Origin: Chrysoperla carnea
Taxonomy: Eukaryota > Arthropoda > Insecta > Neuroptera > Chrysopidae
DNA length: 64,000 nt
Assembly: GCF_905475395.1 (NCBI RefSeq)
Contig: NC_058339.1
Coordinates: 14,516,001 to 14,580,000, forward strand
Direction of reading: 5' to 3'
Shown here in pieces: positions 17,103 to 57,831 of this stretch. The notes under the pieces are model-generated. The model was given only the letters and a program-made list of their open reading frames with translations. It was not told where the DNA came from and ran no database searches. Position 1 is the first letter of the stretch. Each line of letters begins with the position of its first letter. The translations under genes and the position numbers were made by a program.

Positions 17103-18666
17103 GAATAAAATGTGACGATGTAAAAAATACTGATGGTGGAGCTGGTTCTATGAGTGCAGAGACTTTATCAAGCATGAGTGCATCTGAAGTAGACACTTGT
17201 TTGGTCGAATTAGGTAAAGATCGATTACAACCAGACCAAGGAAAAATATTATGGAGTTTATTTTTAAAAGTATGTATCTTTATTTTTACTTTCTTTTTTT
17301 TCGCCCTTAGAAAGCATTCAATTTAAATAACAAGTATTAATTTTTGAGCAGGTAATTTTTAATTATTAGTTAGATATTTCAGTTTTCAAACAAAATTTCT
17401 TGAGACGTTCCGAAATATTCGAAAAAACAGAAAATTTTGAACTTTTTGACCGAAGCTTCGAAACTCACCCACTCATTTTATGTGGGATAAATAGTGTATT
17501 ACCTAGCTATTGTAATCGTTGTGCAAATTTCGCATGCCTACGTTAATAATGCTCTTATCCCCTTTTTATCGAAAAAAACTATTACTATACTAACAAGATT
17601 TTTGCTTTAATGTTACAGAATTATGACTCCATATCAGATATACCTGTAGAAAAGCTGCGCACAGTTGGCTGGGTATCGATAGGTATTAGTGTTAGTGATA
17701 TACGTAATCTTACGTTTGATGACAGTGATATTATACAAGCATTTGGAATTTATCACGCTTTAAATGCGGAACAAGTAATATTTTACGAAATTAGTACACC
17801 TTCTCCTAATCTGTAAATATAATTGAGTAGTTCTACTAATTAGAGAATGAACCCTAATCACTATTGTCCCAATTATCAACACAAACTGAGAGTGACACAA
17901 TTAACTTCCACTTTTTATAGAACTGCCTAATTATATTTACCCAAAGTTTGAACGCCTATAACATATTTTCTTCCGTGATTGTCCTTTTTGTTTTATAATT
18001 CCTTCTGATAGACTTTTTATCGAAATATAAACCTACTCTTGCTGTTTTGAAAACAACAATATTTAATTCGTAATTTAATTTGCAGTTATCAGCGCTTGCA
18101 GAACAATATTTCGAATATACAAATAAAACACCTGAAGATATTACTTATTATGATTTAATATTTTTAAGACAAATAATTTGTGCTTTTAATAAAACTGACA
18201 TTGAGCACATTCATCCTGAAGAATATAAGTGAGTTTTCCCTTTTTTCTCCCCTTTGCGAATTTTAGACTTTCCTTTAAATTGTGCTTTGTGTGAATCGAC
18301 GCTTTGTTTGAGATTAAATCACAAGCACCTTGAACAAAAATTTTGTATAATTTTATTTTATTTTCTTTAGGGAAGCTGCAGGGATCTTAGGAACTTTAAA
18401 AGACTGTCCAATTGAAGTACTCCAAGGTCTGGCTAATTTAGCAATTCATGATGATGCATTTGGCCCACCTAGTGAATGGAGTATGGGAGAGGTAATATAA
18501 ACATTTTGTTATACTAATTTATTTTTTATATCAAAATATGTATTTAATTTTTTAGGTCAAGCTTATTGGAGCAGTTGTGCAAGGTCTGTCAAATGAACAA
18601 AGACGTTTGCTACCACAAGAAGCACAGCAATTCAAACAAACTCAACAGAATAATCCCACACAGTGA
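17103..18666 (+). CDS. 3' exons of a helical-repeat protein, possibly mesothelin/stereocilin-like (partial)
   Basis: Five exons join in frame: 17103-17269, 17619-17774, 18086-18228, 18371-18491 and 18556-18666 (TGA). All have GT-AG borders and phases agree (1, 0, 0, 2, 0). They encode about 230 residues with no break. The first exon opens at an acceptor, so the N-terminus lies upstream and was not found. The peptide is a series of short amphipathic helices with repeated phrases such as SAETLSSMSASEVDTC, IPVEKLRTVGW, HPEEYKEAAGILGTL and LLPQEAQQFKQT. That pattern resembles the armadillo-like repeats of the mesothelin/stereocilin/otoancorin superfamily, but this is judgement from pattern and not a search. 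The C-terminus is Gln-rich and ends NPTQ without a GPI or transmembrane signal. A polyadenylation signal AATAAA lies at 18700-18705. The next gene, an astacin, converges from the other strand. Confidence 0.8.
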
Positions 18667-19372
18667 ATGAAGATCACTACTTTCATAGCTTAAATATTAA
18701 ATAAAAGTTAAATTAAATCGAAATATAAAAATTATTTTAAAAAATTTTTATTTTTTACAATCCTTAATTTATTTAAAAAAAAATAATAACGAGCAAGTAA
18801 AATTTTAACACAGTTTCTTTTTCCACTTTTCCTAGTGAACTAAAGTTATTGATGTATTGGTATTTTATAGTACTAGTAGCAACAAAAATCGATAGAATAT
18901 TAAGCTTTCATTACTACTATCCTGTTATAATATTTCTATTTATATTCATTCATTAAGATTCTTTTTCCCATAACATTCTTCATTATATCTTGCACGAATC
19001 TTTAAAATATCTATTGCACTAAAATCATTACGTTGTCCAATAATCACATTACTTTTCTGAAAAGCAATAAATCGTTCAAAACCATTTTCCGTTACAATTT
19101 AAATATATTTTCGAATAAAGAGTCCTAATAGACCGTCAGTTACTAACAGAAATTTTGTGTCGAGCGAATCGAGATCTTATATCACTTTCAAAGGTCTCTA
19201 TTAGCAAATTTGTCGCGGCTATTACTGGATACAGGTTCCATGGTAGGAACGTTGAATGCCTGAGTCTGGCAGTGTATCACGACTATTGCAGGAGCTTCCA
19301 CAGCGGGGAATAGGACGTAACTGTGCCTCATCTTCTTTGTCACTGTCCAGCTCTTGGCATGAAGAAATGGAT
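18667..19372. other. Interval between convergent genes; GC-richer block
   Basis: The poly(A) signal of the upstream gene is at 18700-18705. Sequence from about 19120 to 19470 is clearly GC-richer than its surroundings and reaches into the end of the astacin reading frame. It contains no intact frame and may be an old insertion, but no repeat ends were recognised. Confidence 0.45.
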
Positions 19373-20643
19373 CTATTTCAGCCAGTATCTCTTTGACGAT
19401 CTCTCCGACCTGAATTTCGTTGACGTCATGCTGTTCTTAATAAGCTCCAAATGGTTCATAATATAGTGGTCGGGGATGGGCCAACCTTCCTTTACTAAAT
19501 TTTGATACTTATAGAGATCCTTAATCATATAATTCACGGTATGACTTACCAATGGCATTATTGTAATTAAGTTTCTATTTTTAGCAAATGCTCGCATACT
19601 GTAATGCATTACACTTGCATAATCATAATCAAAATTTAAATCGTTTACTTTGTTAGAATTGTACTTCGAAAAATTAATAAACGTTTCTAGAAAAAATAAT
19701 ATTAATTTGTAGTATATTACTCATATTATACCATTATTTTCGTCGCTAAATTATCTTTCTTCTGATCCACAATTACGATTAGTTAACAGATCGGTGTTGT
19801 CTTACCTGTTCATGCGATATTAAAACAGGTAAGTGAATATTATTAGCTTACTACACCTATCTGGTAACCAATTGAAAAAATATTTACCAGGTTTAATATT
19901 ATCCCATAAAATATCCACATAATCATCACGATTTGTTGTAGATTGTTGATGATAAAATCCCAGTACATGCATTAATTCATGAATAATTGTACCACGAACT
20001 ATACAATTTTCCTTATCCAAATTTACTTTGTGTTCACGGAGCGCTGGGATTAATCCAACATGTGTAAAACAACCAAATTTTTCTGTTACAATATATATCC
20101 AATGTTGATCATTTCTTTTCTTTGGTCTAAAATTTATGCATGTTTTCTCTTCAAATGCGTCAAATACTTCTAAAAGGGCAGCAACATGCTGTGATTCTAT
20201 TTTTAAAACCAAACATATTCAATAAATTTGAAATTACCTTCTTATGGTACACTCCCAAAAAAATATGATTGAAGTATGACGATAATACATAGTGAAAAAT
20301 AATCTTACCAAATTTTGGATCAATTAAATACGGTATGGTACCATTTGGCCATAATCTAGCTTTACTTGAAACAGCGTTACGAACAGAAATAGCATTATCA
20401 TCCATAGCTATTATATCACCCTCAAATTTTCCACTTCTTTCCCAGGGATATTCTCCAAAATAATCTTTATCTATTATTTCGTCTGCCAATAAATTTTCTA
20501 AAAATACAATTCAATTTCTATTATTATTTTCTTTGAATAGGTACTTATTGTCTGGAAAATATGTTATACATACTTATTCTTAGAAATATAATAAAAAATG
20601 TTAAAGAACACCACTTTAACGAATAATTTGAGGTAAAACCCAT
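19373..20643 (-). CDS. Astacin-family zinc metalloprotease (M12A), complete 4-exon gene
   Basis: Exons on the minus strand are 20643-20574, 20497-20309, 20196-19888 and 19686-19373. All use GT-AG and consistent phase-1 junctions, giving 293 residues. Residues 1 to about 23 form a signal peptide (MGFTSNYSLKWCSLTFFIIF), so the enzyme is secreted. A short pro-region follows, then the catalytic domain begins near the conserved LWPNGTIPYLID. The zinc site is HELMHVLGFYH, giving three His ligands and the catalytic Glu. The methionine turn SVMHY lies in exon 4. Two features are unusual. The residue after the third His is Gln instead of the family's near-invariant Glu. The sequence after the Met-turn departs from the usual astacin ending and lacks the expected final Cys motif. 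Astacins cleave extracellular proteins in digestion, matrix processing or hatching; the substrate is unknown. Confidence 0.88.
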
Positions 20644-21324
20644 TTTTTATTAATATATGTACTCAATTTTTTAGAAGCTTTTATTGAACTCAATTTGGAA
20701 TTTATATGAAATAAATAGACACCCAAAAATTTTATATTCTTCAAAATTCATTTATTTTAGCCAAATGAATAGTTGTCACAATTTTTGTGAAATTCAAATT
20801 CTTATCAAGGTTATTAATTTTCAATGGTTTATTGTTTTCTGGCTTTATTGTTTTTAGATTGAATTGTTGGTTCCGTTGATATCAGACATAGAGCCAGTGT
20901 AACTGAAACAAATATTTCCCAATTTGGCTTCCGATTAATGGCCTTCATTAAATTTCAATCGCCGTCATTGTGCCTGATAAATTTATTAAATTTTTTTTGT
21001 TATATTATTTAAAAAATTATATTTTCTGATATGAATATTTAAATTATCTTAAAACATTAGCAAAGGTTCTTTTTACCGAAGAATATTCTACATGATTTTT
21101 ATGTTTCGGGGCGCGGTGACCAATGTGACGTGATATCTGAATGTTTGGAAGTATTATCAAATACTATTATTTGGAACAGAATACTGACCCAAATATTTTC
21201 AAGAGCTATGTTTGAATAAGTTAGTATTTTTCTTGCTCAAGTGCAAATTTACTTACATCTTTGTGAGGAAACACTTTTTAATCAGGCATTATGTTCCTGA
21301 GAGAAATAGTGTTTCTAGTCCATG
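20644..21324. other. Upstream region of the astacin gene
   Basis: This should contain the astacin promoter, but no TATA or initiator element can be assigned with confidence. A short poly-pyrimidine and AT-rich background is present and no other gene was seen. Confidence 0.4.
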
Positions 21325-21499
21325 AAAATTAAAAACATTTTTTTGTTATATATAAATAAAAATCATTATATATTTTTAATTTTGTTTTATTTTTTAAATT
21401 TTCTATCCTATTTCAGATTTTCTATCCTTACAGATCAAAATTATAAATTAATTAATTATTTAGTAAAGGTAAGTATTAATTTAATTGTATTAATATATA

Positions 21500-21576
21500 T
21501 ATACCGGCTTGGTAGGGTGGATATAGCACTTGTCTGTGAAACCAAAGAACGCTGGTTCGTACCCTGGTGTAGGTAA
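21500..21576 (+). repeat. tRNA-like segment in left arm
   Basis: The segment GGCTTGGTAGGGTGGATA, then CTGTGAA flanked by a short stem, then CTGGTTCGTACCC resembles the D-arm, a GTG-anticodon loop (tRNA-His-like) and a T-arm/B box in tRNA order and spacing. The B box has a substitution at a key position and no good acceptor stem is visible. It reads as a tRNA-derived SINE head and not as a functional tRNA gene. Confidence 0.45.
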
Positions 21577-21804
21577 TATTTTTATATTTAAATTAATTGA
21601 ATTTTTCCTGATGTTTAAATTTTCCACTCTTTTTATAGTTAAAATTATCCATATAACCCGCCCTGTTGCCATAAATAATGTCAATTATACATATGTCATA
21701 AATCATTCTGTCAGGGGGTGGGAATTTAAATAATCATAAATATATCTCCACTCCCTGGTAGAAGAGTGATTTATGACATAAGTAGGAAAGTGGGATTGCC
21801 AGGA

Positions 21805-22904
21805 AATAGGAGAACATGTATTATAGTCTATCTCAATCATATTCTCCTATTACAAAATATTAAAAACATGTATAAAAATGGCTTGGTTATGCTAAAATAA
21901 GAAACTTTTTTAATAGGAGAACATGTCATATAGTCAATCTCAATCATATTCTCCTATTACAAAATATTAAAAACATGTATAATAATGGCTTTGTTATGCT
22001 AAAATAAGGAACCTTTTAATAGGAGAACATGTCATATAGTTTATCTCACTCATATTCTCCTATTACAAGATATTAAAAACATGTATAAAAAATGGCTTGT
22101 TATGCTAAATTAAGAAACCTTTTAATAGGAGAACATGTCATATAGTTTATCTCACTCATATTCTCCTATTACAAGATATTAAAAACATGTATAAAAATGG
22201 CTTGTTATGCTAAATTAAGAAACCTTTTAATAGGAGAACATGTCATATAGTTTATCTCACTCATATTCTCCTATTACAAGATATTAAAAACATGTATAAA
22301 AATGGCTTGGTTATGCTAAAATAAGAAACTTTTTTAATAGGAGAACATGTCATATAGTCAATCTCAATCATATTCTCCTATTACAAAATATTAAAAACAT
22401 GTATAATAATGGCTTTGTTATGCTAAAATAAGGAACCTTTTAATAGGAGAACATGTCATATAGTTTATCTCACTCATATTCTCCTATTACAAGATATTAA
22501 AAACATGTATAAAAAATGGCTTGTTATGCTAAATTAAGAAACCTTTTAATAGGAGAACATGTCATATAGTTTATCTCACTCATATTCTCCTATTACAAGA
22601 TATTAAAAACATGTATAAAAATGGCTTGTTATGCTAAATTAAGAAACCTTTTAATAGGAGAACATGTCATATAGTTTATCTCACTCATATTCTCCTATTA
22701 CAAGATATTAAAAACATGTATACAAATGACTTGTTATGCTAAAATAAGAAACTTTTTAATAGGAGAACATGCCATATAGTTTATCTCACTCATATTCTCC
22801 TATTACAAAATATTAAAAACATGTATAATAATGGCTTTGTTATGCTAAAATAAGAAACCTTTTAATAGGAGAACATGTCATATAACCGATCTAAATTAAT
22901 TATG
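21805..22904. repeat. 106-bp tandem (mini)satellite, about 10.4 copies, with 424-bp higher-order repeat
   Basis: Units start at about 21805, 21912, 22018, 22124, 22229, 22336, 22442, 22548, 22653, 22758 and 22864 (partial). Each begins AATAGGAGAACATG and contains TTCTCCTATTA about 37 bp later, so every unit carries an 11-bp perfect inverted repeat (TAATAGGAGAA/TTCTCCTATTA). Variants recur every four units: units at 21912-22335 closely match those at 22336-22757, a shift of exactly 424 bp. This indicates recent duplication of a four-unit block. Confidence 0.92.
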
Positions 22905-23137
22905 TCAATCCCACTTTCCTACTTATGTCATAAATCACTCTTCTGCCAGGGAGTGGACATATATTTATGATTATTTAAATTCCCACCCCCTGACAGAATT
23001 GTGATTTATGACATATGTATAATTGACATTATTTATGGCAAGAGGGCGGGTTATAAGATTTTAACTATAAAAAGTGGAAAATTTAAACATCAGGAAAAAT
23101 TCATTTAATTTAAAAATAAAAATTATTATCCACACCA

Positions 23138-23212
23138 GGATACGAACCAGCGTACCTTGGTTTCTCAGTCTATATCTGTGCTATATCTACCCTACCAAGC
23201 CGGCTTATTTAT
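23138..23212 (-). repeat. tRNA-like segment in right arm
   Basis: This is the inverted counterpart of the left-arm segment, with B-box-like text read on the minus strand as CTGGTTCGTATCCTGG and the outer GCCGGCTTGGTAGGGTAGATAT. Small substitutions relative to the left copy show some divergence between the arms. It also points into the satellite. Confidence 0.45.
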
Positions 23213-23453
23213 AGCGATACAATTAAATTAATACTTACCTTTACTAAATAATTAAATAATTGATAATTTTTTTCTGAAAGAAAAAATATGATATTTAAAA
23301 AATAAAACAGAATTTAAAATACATAACGATTTTTATTTATAACAAAAAAAAAAAAAAAAAAAATGTTTTTTAATAAACAATTTGATAGAGATTCTTCTTT
23401 TCTTATTAAAGTTTTTATACAAAATAAGTAAAATTCTATCACTTTTATATAAA

Positions 23454-23454
<1 letters not shown>

Positions 23455-23512
<58 letters not shown>
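23455..23512. repeat. (AAT)n microsatellite
   Basis: About 19 perfect AAT repeats lie immediately left of a pair of mariner-type terminal repeats. The Leu-rich open frame on the minus strand here is a product of this repeat and is not a gene. Confidence 0.95.
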
Positions 23513-23513
<1 letters not shown>

Positions 23514-23570
23514 GGGTGTCCCAAGATTAACGTCTGATTCGAGCTTCTTGCGTTAATTTTGGAATACATT
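23513..23570. mobile_element. Vestigial pair of DD41D mariner terminal repeats
   Basis: AAGGGTGTCCCAAGATTAACG is followed within about 15 bp by TCTTGCGTTAATTTTGGAATA. These correspond to the left and right terminal repeats of the full element at 50664-51971 with almost no interior. It is either a minimal derivative or an internally deleted copy. Confidence 0.65.
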
Positions 23571-24147
23571 TATAAAACACAATCTAAACTTCCTTGAGAG
23601 TTGCTTAAAATACATTCATTTTCTACTCAATTCTATATGTATTTCTAAACAAATTTGAGCAGACACTACAAAGACTCTAATATTTGAGTTAGTGAAAATT
23701 GAACACACGAAATAAAAGATAAAAATTTAAAATATTATAAATTAAATTTAAAAATGTACAAAATATATGAGCTTGTATAAAAATGGTATTTATCCTACTT
23801 GCAAGAAATTAGAAAACTTATAATATTTAACTAATTTTGTAAAATTGTAAAAAATTAAATTTTAAAATTTCATACAACTTAATTATTATAATTGAATTTT
23901 ATAAAGTTAATTATATATTATAAGTTTTCTAATGTTGATGCATATAGGATAAATATCATATTTATCAATTATTCAAGATAAGAACCTTATTATATAAGAT
24001 AATAACGAGATCTATTTAGATGATTATACTAATTTAGTTTGGGGGAACCTTCAGAGATGGCATTAAATTTCATGAGATAAAAATTAACATTGACTTTCGT
24101 TTCTGTTTTACCGATATGTTCTCTGATCTTTCATTAATTTAACCAAT

Positions 24148-24981
24148 ATGGAAAACGATATTTTTCATGAAGAAAATAATGCTATATACATAACTGAAAA
24201 ACCCATTAAAGTTGAACAAGAATTACATACAGAAGTAATAATTAAAAATGAAATAACGGATGGAAATTATTTCGACGAACAACCGCAAGAAATTCAAGCC
24301 AAGGGAAAACCATTTTCATGTGATGTGTGTGGTAAAAGATTTACGCTCTATAAAAATTTGATTAAACATAATAATTCTGGCGAACATTTTATAGAAAAAT
24401 GTTTTCCATGTGATGTTTGTGGAAAAACGTTTACTCGACAAAGAAATTTGGATGAACACAAACTAATTCATACTGGAGAGAAACCGCATTCATGTGACGT
24501 TTGTAATAAAACTTTTACCCTGCGATGTAATTTACTTAAACATATGCGATTTCATACTGGCGATAAACCGTATTCATGTGATATTTGTCATAATACTTTT
24601 ACTCTACGTGGAAATTTAGTGAAACATAAACTAATTCATACAGGTGAAAAACCGTTTTCGTGTGATGTTTGTGATCTATCATTCAGTCGACAAAGTTATT
24701 TAGTTCAACATAGTCGAATTCATACGGGAGAAAGACCTTATTCGTGTGACATTTGTGATAAAACATTTACGCAGCAAAGCAGTTTAGTTGCACATAAACG
24801 ACTTCACTTAGAAAAACCTTTCGCGTGTGGTGATTGTGATCAAACGTTTAGAAATCAAAGCCATTTAATTAAACATAGAAGACTTCATACTGGAAATAAA
24901 CCATTCTCATGTGAAGCTTGTAATAAGAAATTTGCATATAAAATTTCTTTAGTGAGACATCAAAAAACTCATTCATTCTAG
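24148..24981 (+). CDS. C2H2 zinc-finger protein, 8 fingers, intronless
   Basis: A single frame of 277 residues contains eight C2H2 fingers from about residue 56 to the end. Typical fingers read CDVCGKTF...H...H with TGEKP/TGDKP/TGERP linkers, the hallmark of sequence-specific DNA-binding nuclear proteins. Finger 1 has a longer His spacing (KHNNSGEH) and a non-standard linker, so it may be degenerate. The finger-6 to finger-7 linker is shortened to LEKP. The acidic N-terminus (residues 1-55) has two IKxE-type sites that could be sumoylated, and no ZAD, BTB or KRAB-type domain is visible. The first ATG at 24148 follows a non-coding stretch. A polyadenylation signal AATAAA lies at 25024-25029. 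The intact frame with no introns fits an expanded insect ZNF family member, possibly retroposed. The target is unknown. Confidence 0.9.
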   Translation: MENDIFHEENNAIYITEKPIKVEQELHTEVIIKNEITDGNYFDEQPQEIQAKGKPFSCDVCGKRFTLYKNLIKHNNSGEHFIEKCFPCDVCGKTFTRQRNLDEHKLIHTGEKPHSCDVCNKTFTLRCNLLKHMRFHTGDKPYSCDICHNTFTLRGNLVKHKLIHTGEKPFSCDVCDLSFSRQSYLVQHSRIHTGERPYSCDICDKTFTQQSSLVAHKRLHLEKPFACGDCDQTFRNQSHLIKHRRLHTGNKPFSCEACNKKFAYKISLVRHQKTHSF

Positions 24982-25084
24982 TTTTATATAAATAATGTAA
25001 ATTATTGTTGGATTTTTTTTACAAATAAAAACACTTTTACAAAAACAATTGTTTCTATAATTTATTGAGAATTTTTGTTTTGAT

Positions 25085-25320
25085 TAATATTTTTTTAACC
25101 GACTTCAAACAAAAACGGAGGATGTTATCAATTCGACTTTATTTTTTATTTTTATGTTTGTTACCTCAGAACTTTCGACTGGGTGAACTGATTTGGATCA
25201 TTGTTTATCTGTTTGAAAGCTGGTGTGGTCCCATTTCATTTTGGTCAAGTTCTGACAACGGCATCCATGAGAAAACCATAAAAGTCTTAAATTTGCATAA
25301 AGTAGTATGAACCGATTTCG
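25085..25320 (+). repeat. Interspersed repeat fragment (AACCGACTTCAAA type)
   Basis: AACCGACTTCAAACAAAAACGGAGGATG followed by TTATCAATTCGACT is a pattern I associate with abundant insect non-LTR or MITE tails. The 81-codon frame at 25065-25310 spans it and is not a gene. It borders the palindrome that follows. Confidence 0.5.
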
Positions 25321-25384
25321 TTGATTCTTTTTTTAGTGACAAATTAGTTAGTGTACTTAAGATTCACTAAAAATCACTAAATAA

Positions 25385-25680
25385 AAAAACTTTTAACTAA
25401 AAGAAAAACTTTTCCAAAAGAAATTAATATGCACTAAAAAGTACAAAAATAAAGATAATATAATGTAGTTAAAATTATTGTTATTATGAAGTCGGTGTCA
25501 GCCAAGGAAACAACTCTGACAGACCAGTTTGCTACATTTGCTTGGCTGACACCGACTCCAAAAATAACAATAATTATAACTACTATATATTATAAATTAT
25601 TTCTTTACTTTTTAGTGCATATTAATTTCTTTTGAAGTCGATTTTCTTTTTGTTAAAAGTTTTTTTATTGTCTCGACTTA
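25385..25680. repeat. Palindromic MITE, ~120-bp arms
   Basis: Left-arm blocks AAAAGAAATTAATATGCACTAAAAAGTA and GAAGTCGGTGTCAGCCAAG are mirrored by CTTGGCTGACACCGACT and TTTTTAGTGCATATTAATTTC. Only about 40 bp separate the arms. The palindrome would form a long snap-back RNA if transcribed. Confidence 0.85.
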
Positions 25681-25720
25681 AGATGAATTCTCGATCAAAA
25701 ATCCTAGTTATAAGCAAATA

Positions 25721-26322
25721 CAGGGCCGGATTTAAATTTCTGCCGCCCTGGGGCACTTTAGAAAATGCCGCCCTATGACTGAAATTTTATTTTAATAGTT
25801 TTGATATCTTATTTTAAAAAAAATTAGAATAACTAATTAATTGCAGAAAATTTATTATTATTTATTACTGTTCTTTTAAATTAAAATTAATTAGTATTAT
25901 TTGATAATTCTCCAATTTTAGGAAAATTCATTGATCAATTAAAGTTTCTGTTATCAAAAAGACATACATAATTTGAAAATATTTTTAATTCTTCAAAAAA
26001 AATTAATTTATCTTCAAAATTAATTTATCAATTCCAGAAAATAAAAATATCAAATTTTATTTTTGCAAACCTTTATGGAAATAAATTAATTAAACTATTT
26101 TAATAGTTTTCACTTAAATTTCCTATATTATAATATACAAAATTTTGATTTGATACATAATGCATAAATTATATTTCTTGAAAAATAAAATGTTTATTTA
26201 AAAGAATTAGATAATTATATATTGTATAGAAAATATTTTCTCACATTCCAAATTTTGCCGCCCTAGAAAATTTGCCGCCCTGGGCACTAGCCCCGATAGC
26301 CCCTAGTGTAAATCCACCACTG
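25721..26322. mobile_element. hAT-superfamily MITE, 602 bp, with 8-bp TSD
   Basis: The element runs from CAGGGCCGGATTTA to TAAATCCACCACTG. On the complement the right end reads CAGTGGTGGATTTA, giving imperfect terminal inverted repeats typical of hAT. It is flanked on both sides by AGCAAATA (25713-25720 and 26323-26330), a perfect 8-bp target duplication, the hAT signature. GCCGCCCT motifs repeat near both ends as sub-terminal repeats. There is no transposase frame. Confidence 0.92.
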
Positions 26323-26449
26323 AGCAAATATATGCGATATGTTAACCATGGATCTCATTAATCTTGCATAAGATAAAAAGAAATAAGAATCAACAAGTCT
26401 TTAAACTCTCACTGAGTATTAACATAGGACCAAAATAAAACATTAAAAA

Positions 26450-27453
26450 AATTTGATATGAATGAATTATGTTTTATTCAGTAATTACAATAATTATTCA
26501 ATGATATTTACAAATATATTACAAGACAAATATTATATATATATATAATAATTATATTTATATATAAACACGTGTATGTATGTTATGTGTATGTAAAATG
26601 ATGTGAAAAAAACATCTACAATGTTCGCTTATAACAAAGCGTCTATAATATTAATATTATATTTAATAATAATAATGAATAAAATAAATTAATAACTTAT
26701 ATAAAAAAAAATTGTATTTTTATCGTTATGTACAGTTAGTTATACATACAGTTCGTTGTAAATTAATTGGTCTATTCTCTCAACCCCTTTTTGAACAATA
26801 TTTAATACACGTAAAACGTGACACGCCACCTTTATAATTTATATTTTCGGGGTAAATTCAAACAAAAAATACGTTTTAAATTTGAAAAAAAACCACCCAC
26901 TAATAAAAATACGACGTTCATTCGATTACTACATTAATTCATTATTTTGTACATTGAGATTAGACGATGCTTATAAAAAAAGGAGGGGAGTAGTAAATTT
27001 GCGCTAAAAATCTTAACATCTAATATAATAACAAACATATAAAAACTTGTATATTTTTTTTTCATTAACAAAAAGAAAATTCACATTTCACATTAGTCAC
27101 CCACCTATTCCAAATCTTTTCGTTCTTGTGATTCGATTAGTCTTGCGTTTGTTTCCATTCCCATGGATTTGTGCAACAACTGTTACGTTGCGGAATACAT
27201 ATATTTTAGGTTTTTTTGGATGGAACTATAAAATTTAATTCTTAGTATTGTCTAAATAGCAATATTATTTTCACATAATATTTGGTTTAAAATATATTTT
27301 CTTGTTTCTAAATTGACTGACATGGTGTTTTGTGTTTTCTTTTATCGTTTAATACATTTTTCAACAAAATTTAATCAAATTAATTTCATAAAAATTTAAA
27401 ATGTTATAAATTAGCCATCTATGCTGTATAATCCACATTTGAATTGCACCAAT
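26450..27453 (-). other. step: Probable 3' UTR exon of cytohesin
   Basis: Downstream of the cytohesin stop (28258), the minus strand has a strong donor CCAAG|GTATGT ending an exon at 28213. A matching acceptor, CTTTATTTACAG, lies at 27460-27454. Joining them would place a non-coding exon from 27453 to a polyadenylation signal AATAAA at 26478-26473. The signals are good but there is no coding evidence, so this is inference. Confidence 0.45.
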
Positions 27454-50663: not shown

Positions 50664-51971
50664 AAGGGTGTCCCAAAATTAACGCAAGATTTGAATTACA
50701 TAGAAAACACAGTTTTTAGTCTTTTGATTGTAATTTTTTATTGATTCATTAAGTACATAGAATAGGGTTATTTATGGAATAACACATCGGGAAAATGGCC
50801 TCCGCGGCTTTGCATACACATACGCACTCGTTTGTCGAAATTTTCCATGACCGTTCTGCATAAATGTGGCTGAATTTCGTTGATGCAACGTTGAATCTCC
50901 TCCTTTAATGCACGCGTAGTTGTGGGCTTGTTGACGTAGACCTATGATTTTAGATATCCCCATAAAAAGAAATCTAATGGTGTTAAATCACACGATCTAG
51001 GGGGCCAATTCTGATCACCGAAACGAGAGAGTACACGACCTGGAAATGTCTCATGCAATAATTGAAGTGTTTCACGGGCTGTATGGCATGTGGCACCGTC
51101 TTGTTGAAACCACATATTAGCCACATCAATATCATCCAATTTCGGCAAAAAGAACCGTGTTATCATGTCGCGATATCGAGCAGAAGTAACAGTCACTGCT
51201 TGACCAGCCTCATTTTCAAAAAAGTATGGTCCAATTATGCCTCCAGCCCAAAATGCACACCAAACTGTGACACGTTGTGGATGCATTTGTTTTTCGACAA
51301 TCACATGTGGATTTTCAGAACCCCAAAAGCGGCAATTTTGGCGATTTACAAAGCCATCAAGGTGAAAATGTGCTTCGTCGCTTAGGATGAGTTTGCTCGA
51401 AAAATCAGCATTCATTTGTTGTTGCTCAATAATCCATTCAACAAACTCTCTTCGCTGTGCATGGTCATTGGGCTTCAGTAGTTGTGTTAATTGAATTTTG
51501 TAAGCATGGAGACACAGATCTTTAGTGAGTATTGTATACGCTGTAGAGAGCTTCTTGAAATTTGCAATTCTTGTCCACGACGCCGAATTGAGGTTCCTGG
51601 ATTGTCACCGACACTCGCACGCACTGCCTCTATATTGACATTTGAACGGCTTGTTTTTGGACGACCAGTGTGTTTGGCGTCTCCCACGGATCCTGTCTCT
51701 CGGAATTTTTCAATTAATCGCTTCACAGTTGACGAAGTTAAAACATTATTCCGACCATATTTTGTATGAAATTTTCGAACTACGGCCGCCAAGCATTCAT
51801 TATTTTTGAAATATTGCTCAACAATGAAGACACGTTGTTCTATTGCGTAACGCTCCATTTTTCCTAACCCTAAACTGTCAACTGTCGATTTATTTTGTTT
51901 TTAGGGTTGGCAACACTGTACTGCATAAATGGCGGCAAATTCAAATCTTGCGTTAATTTTGGGACACCCTT
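50664..51971 (-). mobile_element. Full-length DD41D Tc1/mariner (rosa-like) transposon
   Basis: The 1308-bp element has near-perfect terminal inverted repeats of about 35 bp (AAGGGTGTCCCAAAATTAAC, then GCAAGATTTGAATT) and is bounded by TA on both sides (50662-50663, 51972-51973). It carries one transposase gene on the minus strand, described separately. The repeats are nearly identical, so insertion was fairly recent, but the gene is broken. A tiny derivative of the same ends lies at 23513-23570. Confidence 0.95.
50780..51858 (-). pseudogene. DD41D mariner transposase, frameshifted with premature stop
   Basis: Translation starts at 51858 (MERYAIEQRVFIVEQYF). The N-terminal part is a helix-turn-helix DNA-binding region ending near SSLQRI. 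A frameshift at about 51537-51543 moves the frame, which continues into LTQLLK and REFVEWIIEQQQ, then the catalytic domain (ILSDEAHFHLDGF, WFQQDGATCHTAR, CDLTPLDFFLWGY). The second and third catalytic Asp residues are separated by 41 residues, which defines the DD41D (rosa) group. A TAG stop follows GYLKS near 50943, after which the same frame continues (VYVNKPTTT to GGHFPDVLFHK). All three catalytic Asp codons survive, but the product is not full length. It cuts and pastes DNA at TA sites when intact. Confidence 0.92.
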
Positions 51972-56539: not shown

Positions 56540-56815
56540 TTTCTAGAAAATAATAAAATGAATGTTGGTAGTGGATTATCTATTTTTGTACAGTTTCTCT
56601 CTCTTCTGACACTTTTCTTTTCAGCTAAACTGACAAGAAAAAGCCTCAAGATCCGACTAATAAGATAAAATGTAAAATTGATTAAAAATTTCTAGAAAAG
56701 AATAAAATGAATGTTAGTAGTCGATTATCTATTTTTTTACAGTTTCTCTCTCTTCTGACGCTTTTCTTTTCAGCTAAACTCACAAGGAAAAGCCTCAAGA
56801 TCCGACTAATAAGAT
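56540..56815 (+). repeat. ~150-bp tandem duplication
   Basis: TTTCTAGAAAATAATAAAATG through AAAAAGCCTCAAGATCCGACTAATAAGATAA is repeated directly (about 56543 and 56692 starts) with a handful of differences. Each copy contains TTTCTCTCTCTTCTGAC and a strong acceptor-like CTTTTCTTTTCAG. A probable local duplication. Confidence 0.88.
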
Positions 56816-57831
56816 AATAAAATTCAACCCGCAATATTACTCGTATAATATGTCGTGAAAATGTAAAATTGATTGAAATTTATTTTTTATTGTCATCAAT
56901 TCAATCCCGCTAACCTTTGTACTTTGTATATGTTTTTTTAAGTATTAATAACTCACTTCAGGAAATAAAAATTTATAATTAAATAAAAAAAAAGATTTAT
57001 TTAACTTCTTTAAATAATTTTACAGATAATTGGCACTCTTCCATTCACAACAATAGAAAATTCTCATGAATGAAGTTCCTGATTTTTAACATTTACTGAT
57101 ACTAGCATGAAATAGTTGTAGCCAAATATTTGTTCGTATGACGTTATTCTCTGAATTATAACAAAAAATCTATTTCGCGAATAATAAAAAAAAAAAAGTC
57201 TAAAAAATTGAAATGATTTCAATAAAAACTAATTGCTTATGCAAACGAATAAATAATTGAGGCTTAGAAAAAAAATTCATTTCTATTAATAAAAAATATT
57301 ATTTTTTCGCAATAATTTCCCATTTTAAATGAAAACATGTTAATTTTCATAATTAATTAATATTTAAAAAATAGATAGTTAGTAGTTTTAACATGCACTT
57401 CCTTTTGATAATCCAATTAAATTGATTTTAATGAGTTATGTAATGATTTTGTTTTAGTTTACAAAAGGTAAAATTTTTTAATTGCATGTAACTATTAGTG
57501 TTCAATCTTTTAAACAAATAATAGTTATAATTCCCAACCGGGTTTGGTTGAAATAACACGGGTTTGCCTTCTTAGTAAAGTGTAGAATATAAGAGGCTAA
57601 AATCCTAAGAAAGTTTCTTTTCAATTTTTGGATTCGAAGTACCACTCACGACATTTAAGTCTTCGTTATTTGAGTCGTTTGTGGTCAGAGTGGCCTAATC
57701 AATTAAATTTAAATAAAAAAAAGAGTTTATGTTTTCATTACATTCCTTTGGGAATAATCTACAATTTCATACAAGCCTTTCCTCATATTTCACAATAACG
57801 TGATAACGTAATAGTTTAAGCTTAGGTTAGG
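56816..57831. other. Intergenic DNA, nothing recognised
   Basis: No gene, RNA or transposon end was recognised. Confidence 0.4.

Follow-up and report, generated by a model that had tools for sequence, protein, structure and literature searches.

The window analysed here, a stretch of 64,000 nucleotides from the neuropteran Chrysoperla carnea (C3:14516001-14580000 of the 559-Mb assembly), contains a structure in which two inverted arms enclose a tandem array. It is located between an astacin-type gene (minus strand) and a C2H2 zinc-finger ORF (plus strand). The left arm extends over 21321-21801 on the plus strand, with the outer limit of homology at about 21321, and the right arm, its inverted counterpart, over 22903-23354 on the minus strand. 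Inverted arms of about 450 bp, each with one internal hairpin, had been described in an initial annotation of this DNA, and both features are borne out. A repeat search of the window resolves inverted sub-blocks of 54-103 nt with 81-98% complementarity that connect 21338-21801 with 22903-23354, a BLAST search of the window against itself returns the arms as an inverted match of 21338-21801 with 22903-23353 at 86%, and in the genome search the window element matches its own minus strand with E = 1.1e-286. The repeat search also recovers both hairpins, at 21688-21784 in the left arm (plus strand, 21688-21709 pairing with 21763-21784) and at 22920-23019 in the right arm (minus strand, 22920-22963 pairing with 22976-23019). 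The extent first assigned to the element, 21325..23372, holds for the structure but is too narrow in its limits, as homology to the family copy L025 spans ~21321 to ~23595; on the right, an extra outer sequence of about 240 bp (23355-23595, minus strand, including an (ATA)n stretch at 23449-23512) is common to other copies and absent on the left. No stop-to-stop ORF of at least 110 amino acids overlaps the element, an old, non-coding member of a repeat family with hundreds of sites scattered through the genome.

Matches of the arm hairpins to miRNA-like Rfam models all remained under the gathering scores, and microRNA candidates in the arms were set aside. A strong hairpin elsewhere in the window, at 25457-25591, likewise matches miRNA models below gathering scores (E = 2e-6) and is perhaps a small palindromic repeat. 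Two overlapping ORFs lie on the minus strand at 50942-51900, one of which (51490-51900) matches the DUF4817 helix-turn-helix domain while the other has no Pfam match; together they have the look of what is presumably a broken mariner-type transposase. At 56540-56817 a 149-bp sequence is repeated 1.9 times at 94%.

Between the arms, at 21805-22884 on the plus strand, lie 10.2 copies of a 106-bp unit (94% matches, TRF score 1876), confirming the tandem array proposed for this position, and every copy carries an imperfect palindrome, AATAGGAGAACATG...CATATTCTCCTATT. The array had also been termed a higher-order satellite. This applies to a single duplicated block of four units (21805-22652, plus strand, consisting of 21805-22228 and 22229-22652), but to nothing beyond that one duplication: 21805-22229 matches 22229-22653 at 99%, units 2/6, 3/7 and 4/8 are identical, and units 1/5 differ at five aligned positions. 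Across the genome, a 31-mer from the unit is found at 257 sites with up to 3 mismatches (0 for the reversed-pattern control), and 50 of the 55 sources scanned (54 loci and the window) contain unit matches. These amount to 9.9 unit lengths in the window, 5.0 in L009 and 0.5-4.4 in the other 48, where each count refers to a fetched stretch, which in some cases contains several elements, is cut or is split by insertions. Of the 100 matches listed of the 257, seven make up a same-strand run with a spacing of ~106 bp, all of them in the window, and no second comparable array was found among these listed matches, the 40 scored of 326 candidates or the 55 sources. A genome-wide satellite was rejected as an explanation, since the unit is not tandem to the window's degree at the other sites seen; instead, the array looks like a local expansion.

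The arms are likewise part of a dispersed family. Querying with the whole element gave 168 matches from the 40 scored of 640 candidates, and a 25-mer from a tRNA-like portion of the arm is present at 158 genome sites with up to 2 mismatches, the reversed-pattern control giving 0. Inverted arm pairs occur at many loci (for example L011, L012, L020, L023, L026, L031, L036, L040 and L041), and arms and unit recur together at loci other than the window. As is characteristic of foldback elements, the copies are many, dispersed, modular and variable in structure, and long inverted repeats form a large share of the window element. A separate palindromic repeat of ~215 bp is located in the outer arm zone of one copy (L025:3467-3681) and was matched alone at 13 of 40 scored places.

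Taken together, the locus is in our judgement probably a degenerate copy of a modular, dispersed element of foldback type (long inverted repeat), with a core that was expanded on the spot. The basic element would consist of an arm, a core and an inverted arm, the usual core being a few diverged copies of the ~106-bp palindrome-based unit, and the ten similar units of the window would have arisen in place, by unequal exchange or slippage. The family may once have moved as a non-autonomous DNA element using an enzyme of other source and later have been broken and reshuffled. A foldback transposon with its centre expanded as satellite had been among the original suggestions; the recurrence of arms and unit, the two-armed copies and the lack of a second comparable array among the sampled and listed sites agree with it, but the target duplications expected of a transposon were not found in the pairs examined.

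The analysis of the outer limits comprised 50 arms (36 sources), all of them covering the first 40 bases of the query as well as base 300, with the outer sequence of L025 as reference. L025 necessarily extends to the end of its own sequence; the limits of the other 49 arms fall between reference positions 257 and 796, mostly at 497-796, a spread of more than 500 bp in which copies with a different outer module are scored as ended there; the limit of L040 (92) is set by the fetched stretch. Measured against L025, no precise terminus is shared among these 50 arms. The initial annotation had named target duplications among the signs of a mobile unit, and these were sought at 10 loci in 12 two-armed pairs. 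Over nine bases, the highest direct match comprised 5-8 positions, with three pairs at 8 and none at 9, and random left-right pairings gave 8 or 9 in 70 of 400 cases; no duplication was thus found in the 12 pairs beyond the level of random pairings. Ragged termini count against an intact transposon with terminal inverted repeats, and together with the missing duplications they lower the foldback reading that we prefer; a cut-and-paste origin of the arm element is not demonstrated. No transposase or autonomous relative was tied to the arms, nor were any of the 14 MULE-domain matches in the genome.

Ragged ends and missing target duplications would also be accounted for if the copies derived from a macro-repeat, tandem or extrachromosomal, of which pieces broke at random and were reintegrated. 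Such an origin gains some support from the loci L059-L062, where direct arms stand ~1.36-1.38 kb apart in a second architecture of the family, which means that inversion is not universal within it. However, a long array is missing from the 9.9 kb around L060 (L063), where two complete arm stretches and a partial one occur in direct orientation, and many loci of the family are inverted rather than tandem. We consider this origin unlikely.

In order to place the similarity of the two window arms within the family, we compared 54 arms with each other. Inter-locus identity has a mean of 0.873 (sd 0.025, 1414 pairs) and arm pairs within a locus a mean of 0.896 (n = 17, direct ones included). The window pair has an identity of 0.914, and the best inter-locus matches of its two arms have 0.910 and 0.918; at full arm length, the similarity of the window pair is nothing out of the ordinary in this family. 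The outer arm half is ordinary as well, with 0.874 and 0.842 in the two segments compared to inter-locus values of 0.905 and 0.793. In contrast, the segments of the inner half reach 0.971 and 0.979 versus 0.896 and 0.901 between loci, each value being attained by 1.3% of the 1414 pairs, so that the left-arm inner half (21576-21744, plus strand) is 97-98% identical to the right arm where the inter-locus average is 90%. With inner halves this much closer to each other than arms from separate loci, arm-to-arm conversion in this part is likely; gene conversion would have transferred the sequence of one arm to the other, as a palindrome would predict.

The arms also contain the tRNA-like segments, pointing inwards on both sides, from which convergent pol III transcription through the satellite had been proposed. 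In the left arm the segment lies at 21505-21575 on the plus strand, with a B-box-like sequence GGTTCGTACCC at 21554-21564 and, 14 nt past it, a TTTTT at 21579-21583 (plus strand) that is likely a pol III stop. Its right-arm counterpart lies at 23130-23205 on the minus strand, with the B-box-like site at 23138-23148 and a TTTTT past it at 23118-23122 (minus strand); by hand count its A-to-B spacing exceeds that of the family consensus. No tRNA is predicted in the window by ARAGORN, a search of 18000-27000 with Rfam gave no tRNA match even at E up to 5, and in 19 related loci all Rfam families stay below their gathering scores; ARAGORN runs with lenient settings, which produced calls almost throughout, were disregarded. 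In the majority consensus of the 54 arms the B-box-like match is 10/11, a value reached by 6 of 2000 mononucleotide shuffles, and it follows the start of the A-box match by 44 nt, a tRNA-like distance. The A-box match itself is not significant, its score being reached by 728 of the 2000 shuffles, and both boxes were reached by 2 of 2000. Based on the B-box-like match, the spacing and the shuffle counts, a decayed tRNA-derived promoter in the arms is plausible. Of the tRNA-like segments as first described, the inward direction and the B-box-like site stand, but neither tRNA prediction nor A-box lends them support.

Conservation along the arm and the surroundings of the B-box-like site bear on the proposed transcription. 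When the arm is divided into four segments, the one containing the tRNA-like stretch (21481-21575) shows the lowest conservation, with an inter-locus identity of 0.793 versus 0.896-0.905. In bins of 20 bases the A-box half and the bases preceding it are lowest (0.81-0.84), the B-box part has 0.91-0.92 and the remaining bins 0.92-0.98, except for 0.84 in a hairpin bin that is found in 35% of the arms. We also observed that the arm consensus at 21425-21475 and at its right-arm counterpart resembles a short exon between a 3' and a 5' splice site (TTTCTTTCAG ... GTAAGTATT); with 0.95 the conservation of this splice-like stretch equals that of the best arm parts. The B-box-like site is present in 52 of 54 arms, and within 60 nt downstream of it all 52 have a TTTT and 51 a TTTTT; the median distance from the site to the TTTT is 14 nt (52 arms), these being raw figures from AT-rich DNA in which T runs are common. 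T runs terminate pol III, so a transcript begun at the B-box-like site is expected to end inside the arm. With a TTTTT this close in 51 of 52 arms and the tRNA-like segment as the least conserved one, convergent pol III transcription through the satellite is disfavoured. The T runs, the low conservation and the absence of tRNA calls likewise disfavour a working tRNA gene or a pol III locus that reads across the array.

A related possibility is an hpRNA (endo-siRNA) locus, in which a transcript through both arms would fold back on itself, Dicer would process the duplex and the array would form the loop. The arms can pair across ~450 bp, with blocks of 97 nt and 54 nt at 97-98% complementarity, and the unusually alike inner halves would suit such a function. 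However, pairing is a property of any long inverted repeat, the identity over the whole arm falls inside the family range, T runs follow the B-box-like sites, and a promoter for full read-through is not demonstrated, which in our view makes an hpRNA locus quite improbable. A head-to-head pair of tRNA-derived SINE copies flanking an unrelated satellite would fit the inward B-box-like sites, the tRNA-like consensus distance of 44 nt and a T run positioned like the stop of a tRNA gene, but the tRNA-like stretch makes up ~70 of 450 bp and is the least conserved segment, arms and unit are found together at other loci, standard settings give no tRNA call and no target duplication was found, rendering this explanation very improbable. 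If the foldback-type element that we favour has any RNA effect, it would be incidental read-through.

Three described systems were compared. Tetris of Drosophila virilis is a foldback transposon with tandem repeats inside its inverted repeats (PMC4079207). It resembles the window family in being non-coding and modular, with long inverted repeats and many rearranged copies, and the window element in having internal tandem repeats able to expand into satellite-like arrays, but its tandem repeats are situated within the inverted repeats, whereas the window array is situated between the arms (PMC4079207). Its target duplications measure 8-9 bp in three complete copies and 9-10 bp in four rearranged ones (PMC4079207). 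Galileo of Drosophila willistoni shares long inverted repeats and a very variable structure with the window family; further features reminiscent of the window element are tandem repeats in one copy and sequence that one inverted repeat gained and that is later present in both (PMC4168063). Unlike the arm element it has target duplications of 7-8 bp, and its transposase assigns it to the P superfamily (PMC4168063). The Cg_HINE elements of the Pacific oyster, non-autonomous Helentrons, are similarly dispersed and have short central tandem arrays between flanking modules; their abstract makes no mention of long inverted arms, whereas the flanks in the window are inverted copies of ~450 bp (PMC7492417). 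As both Tetris and Galileo have target duplications and none were found for the arm element, we describe the latter as working like a degenerate foldback element but refrain from classing it with the proven ones. The initial annotation knew of no described element with the full combination of arms, hairpins, tRNA-like segments and array; we uphold this for the full-text literature searched and do not claim it beyond.

Several of the larger family copies harbour a nested element within the unit core, at recurrent positions (L015:2598-5085, L022:2742-5222, L025:17-2503 and L026:4558-5905). In L015 it is 2.49 kb long and has inverted ends of ~250 bp with 79% identity. At five loci with both ends, 9-bp target duplications are perfect in three (L022, L025 and L026), match at 8/9 in L015 and at 3/9 in the remaining one. 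Target duplications of 9 bp are typical of Mutator-like elements; the 14 MULE-domain matches in the genome have no demonstrated link to the nested termini. Twelve of these 14 cluster near one end of contig C1 (C1:138.28-139.76 Mb). The nested terminus is found at 233 sites with up to 3 mismatches (control 0), well below the 7007 search candidates, which are not taken as the copy number of the nested element; the rest of the candidates may represent a widespread interior segment with an (ACGG)n stretch, which may resemble the Helentron-type DINE-1. A separate tRNA-like stretch was noted on the minus strand inside the nested element (L015:3257-3329; Rfam 22 bits, cut-off 29).

The location of the nested element was assessed in three sets of copies. 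At E up to 1e-15, all 26 nested ends in L009-L065 lie in the unit core, a location expected for loci fetched mainly for the arm, the unit or the tRNA-like part (one L025 end with a flank of less than 60 bases was dropped). For copies picked by the interior, with a flank unlike that of the first copy, 12 of 17 lie in the core (18 were fetched, of which L069 was left out because it belongs to the opposite end of the L022 copy). Picking by the terminus alone gave 14 of 20, where the 20 are the first listed places with zero mismatch, all on C1 and C2, skipping those fetched earlier. As a control, 150-mers were drawn at random from the window outside the element, and 0 of 285 match the core. With E up to 1e-3 the numbers are 13 of 17, 18 of 20 and 18 of 285, respectively. 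The insertion points that could be placed cluster near positions 144-160, 252, 370-387 and 405-420 of the 570-bp core reference. The nested interiors are 95-99% alike (40 scored) compared to ~87% for the family arms, determined on a different set of loci, which favours insertion after the spread of the family over joint spread, with gene conversion between copies as another possibility. We put the chances at about even that the palindromic unit core is a preferred landing platform for a younger DNA element, mostly of 2.3-2.5 kb and with 9-bp duplications, at the same few unit positions.

The window element would provide a case of a dispersed inverted-repeat element seeding tandem repeats locally, which has been proposed as a way in which new satellites arise. 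If the core indeed acts as a landing platform, the window array would amount to ten unoccupied targets, and the family would be an instance of a mobile element whose core is parasitised by a second one. Target choice would then be accessible to testing, as hundreds of sites, both occupied and empty, carry this short and defined unit.
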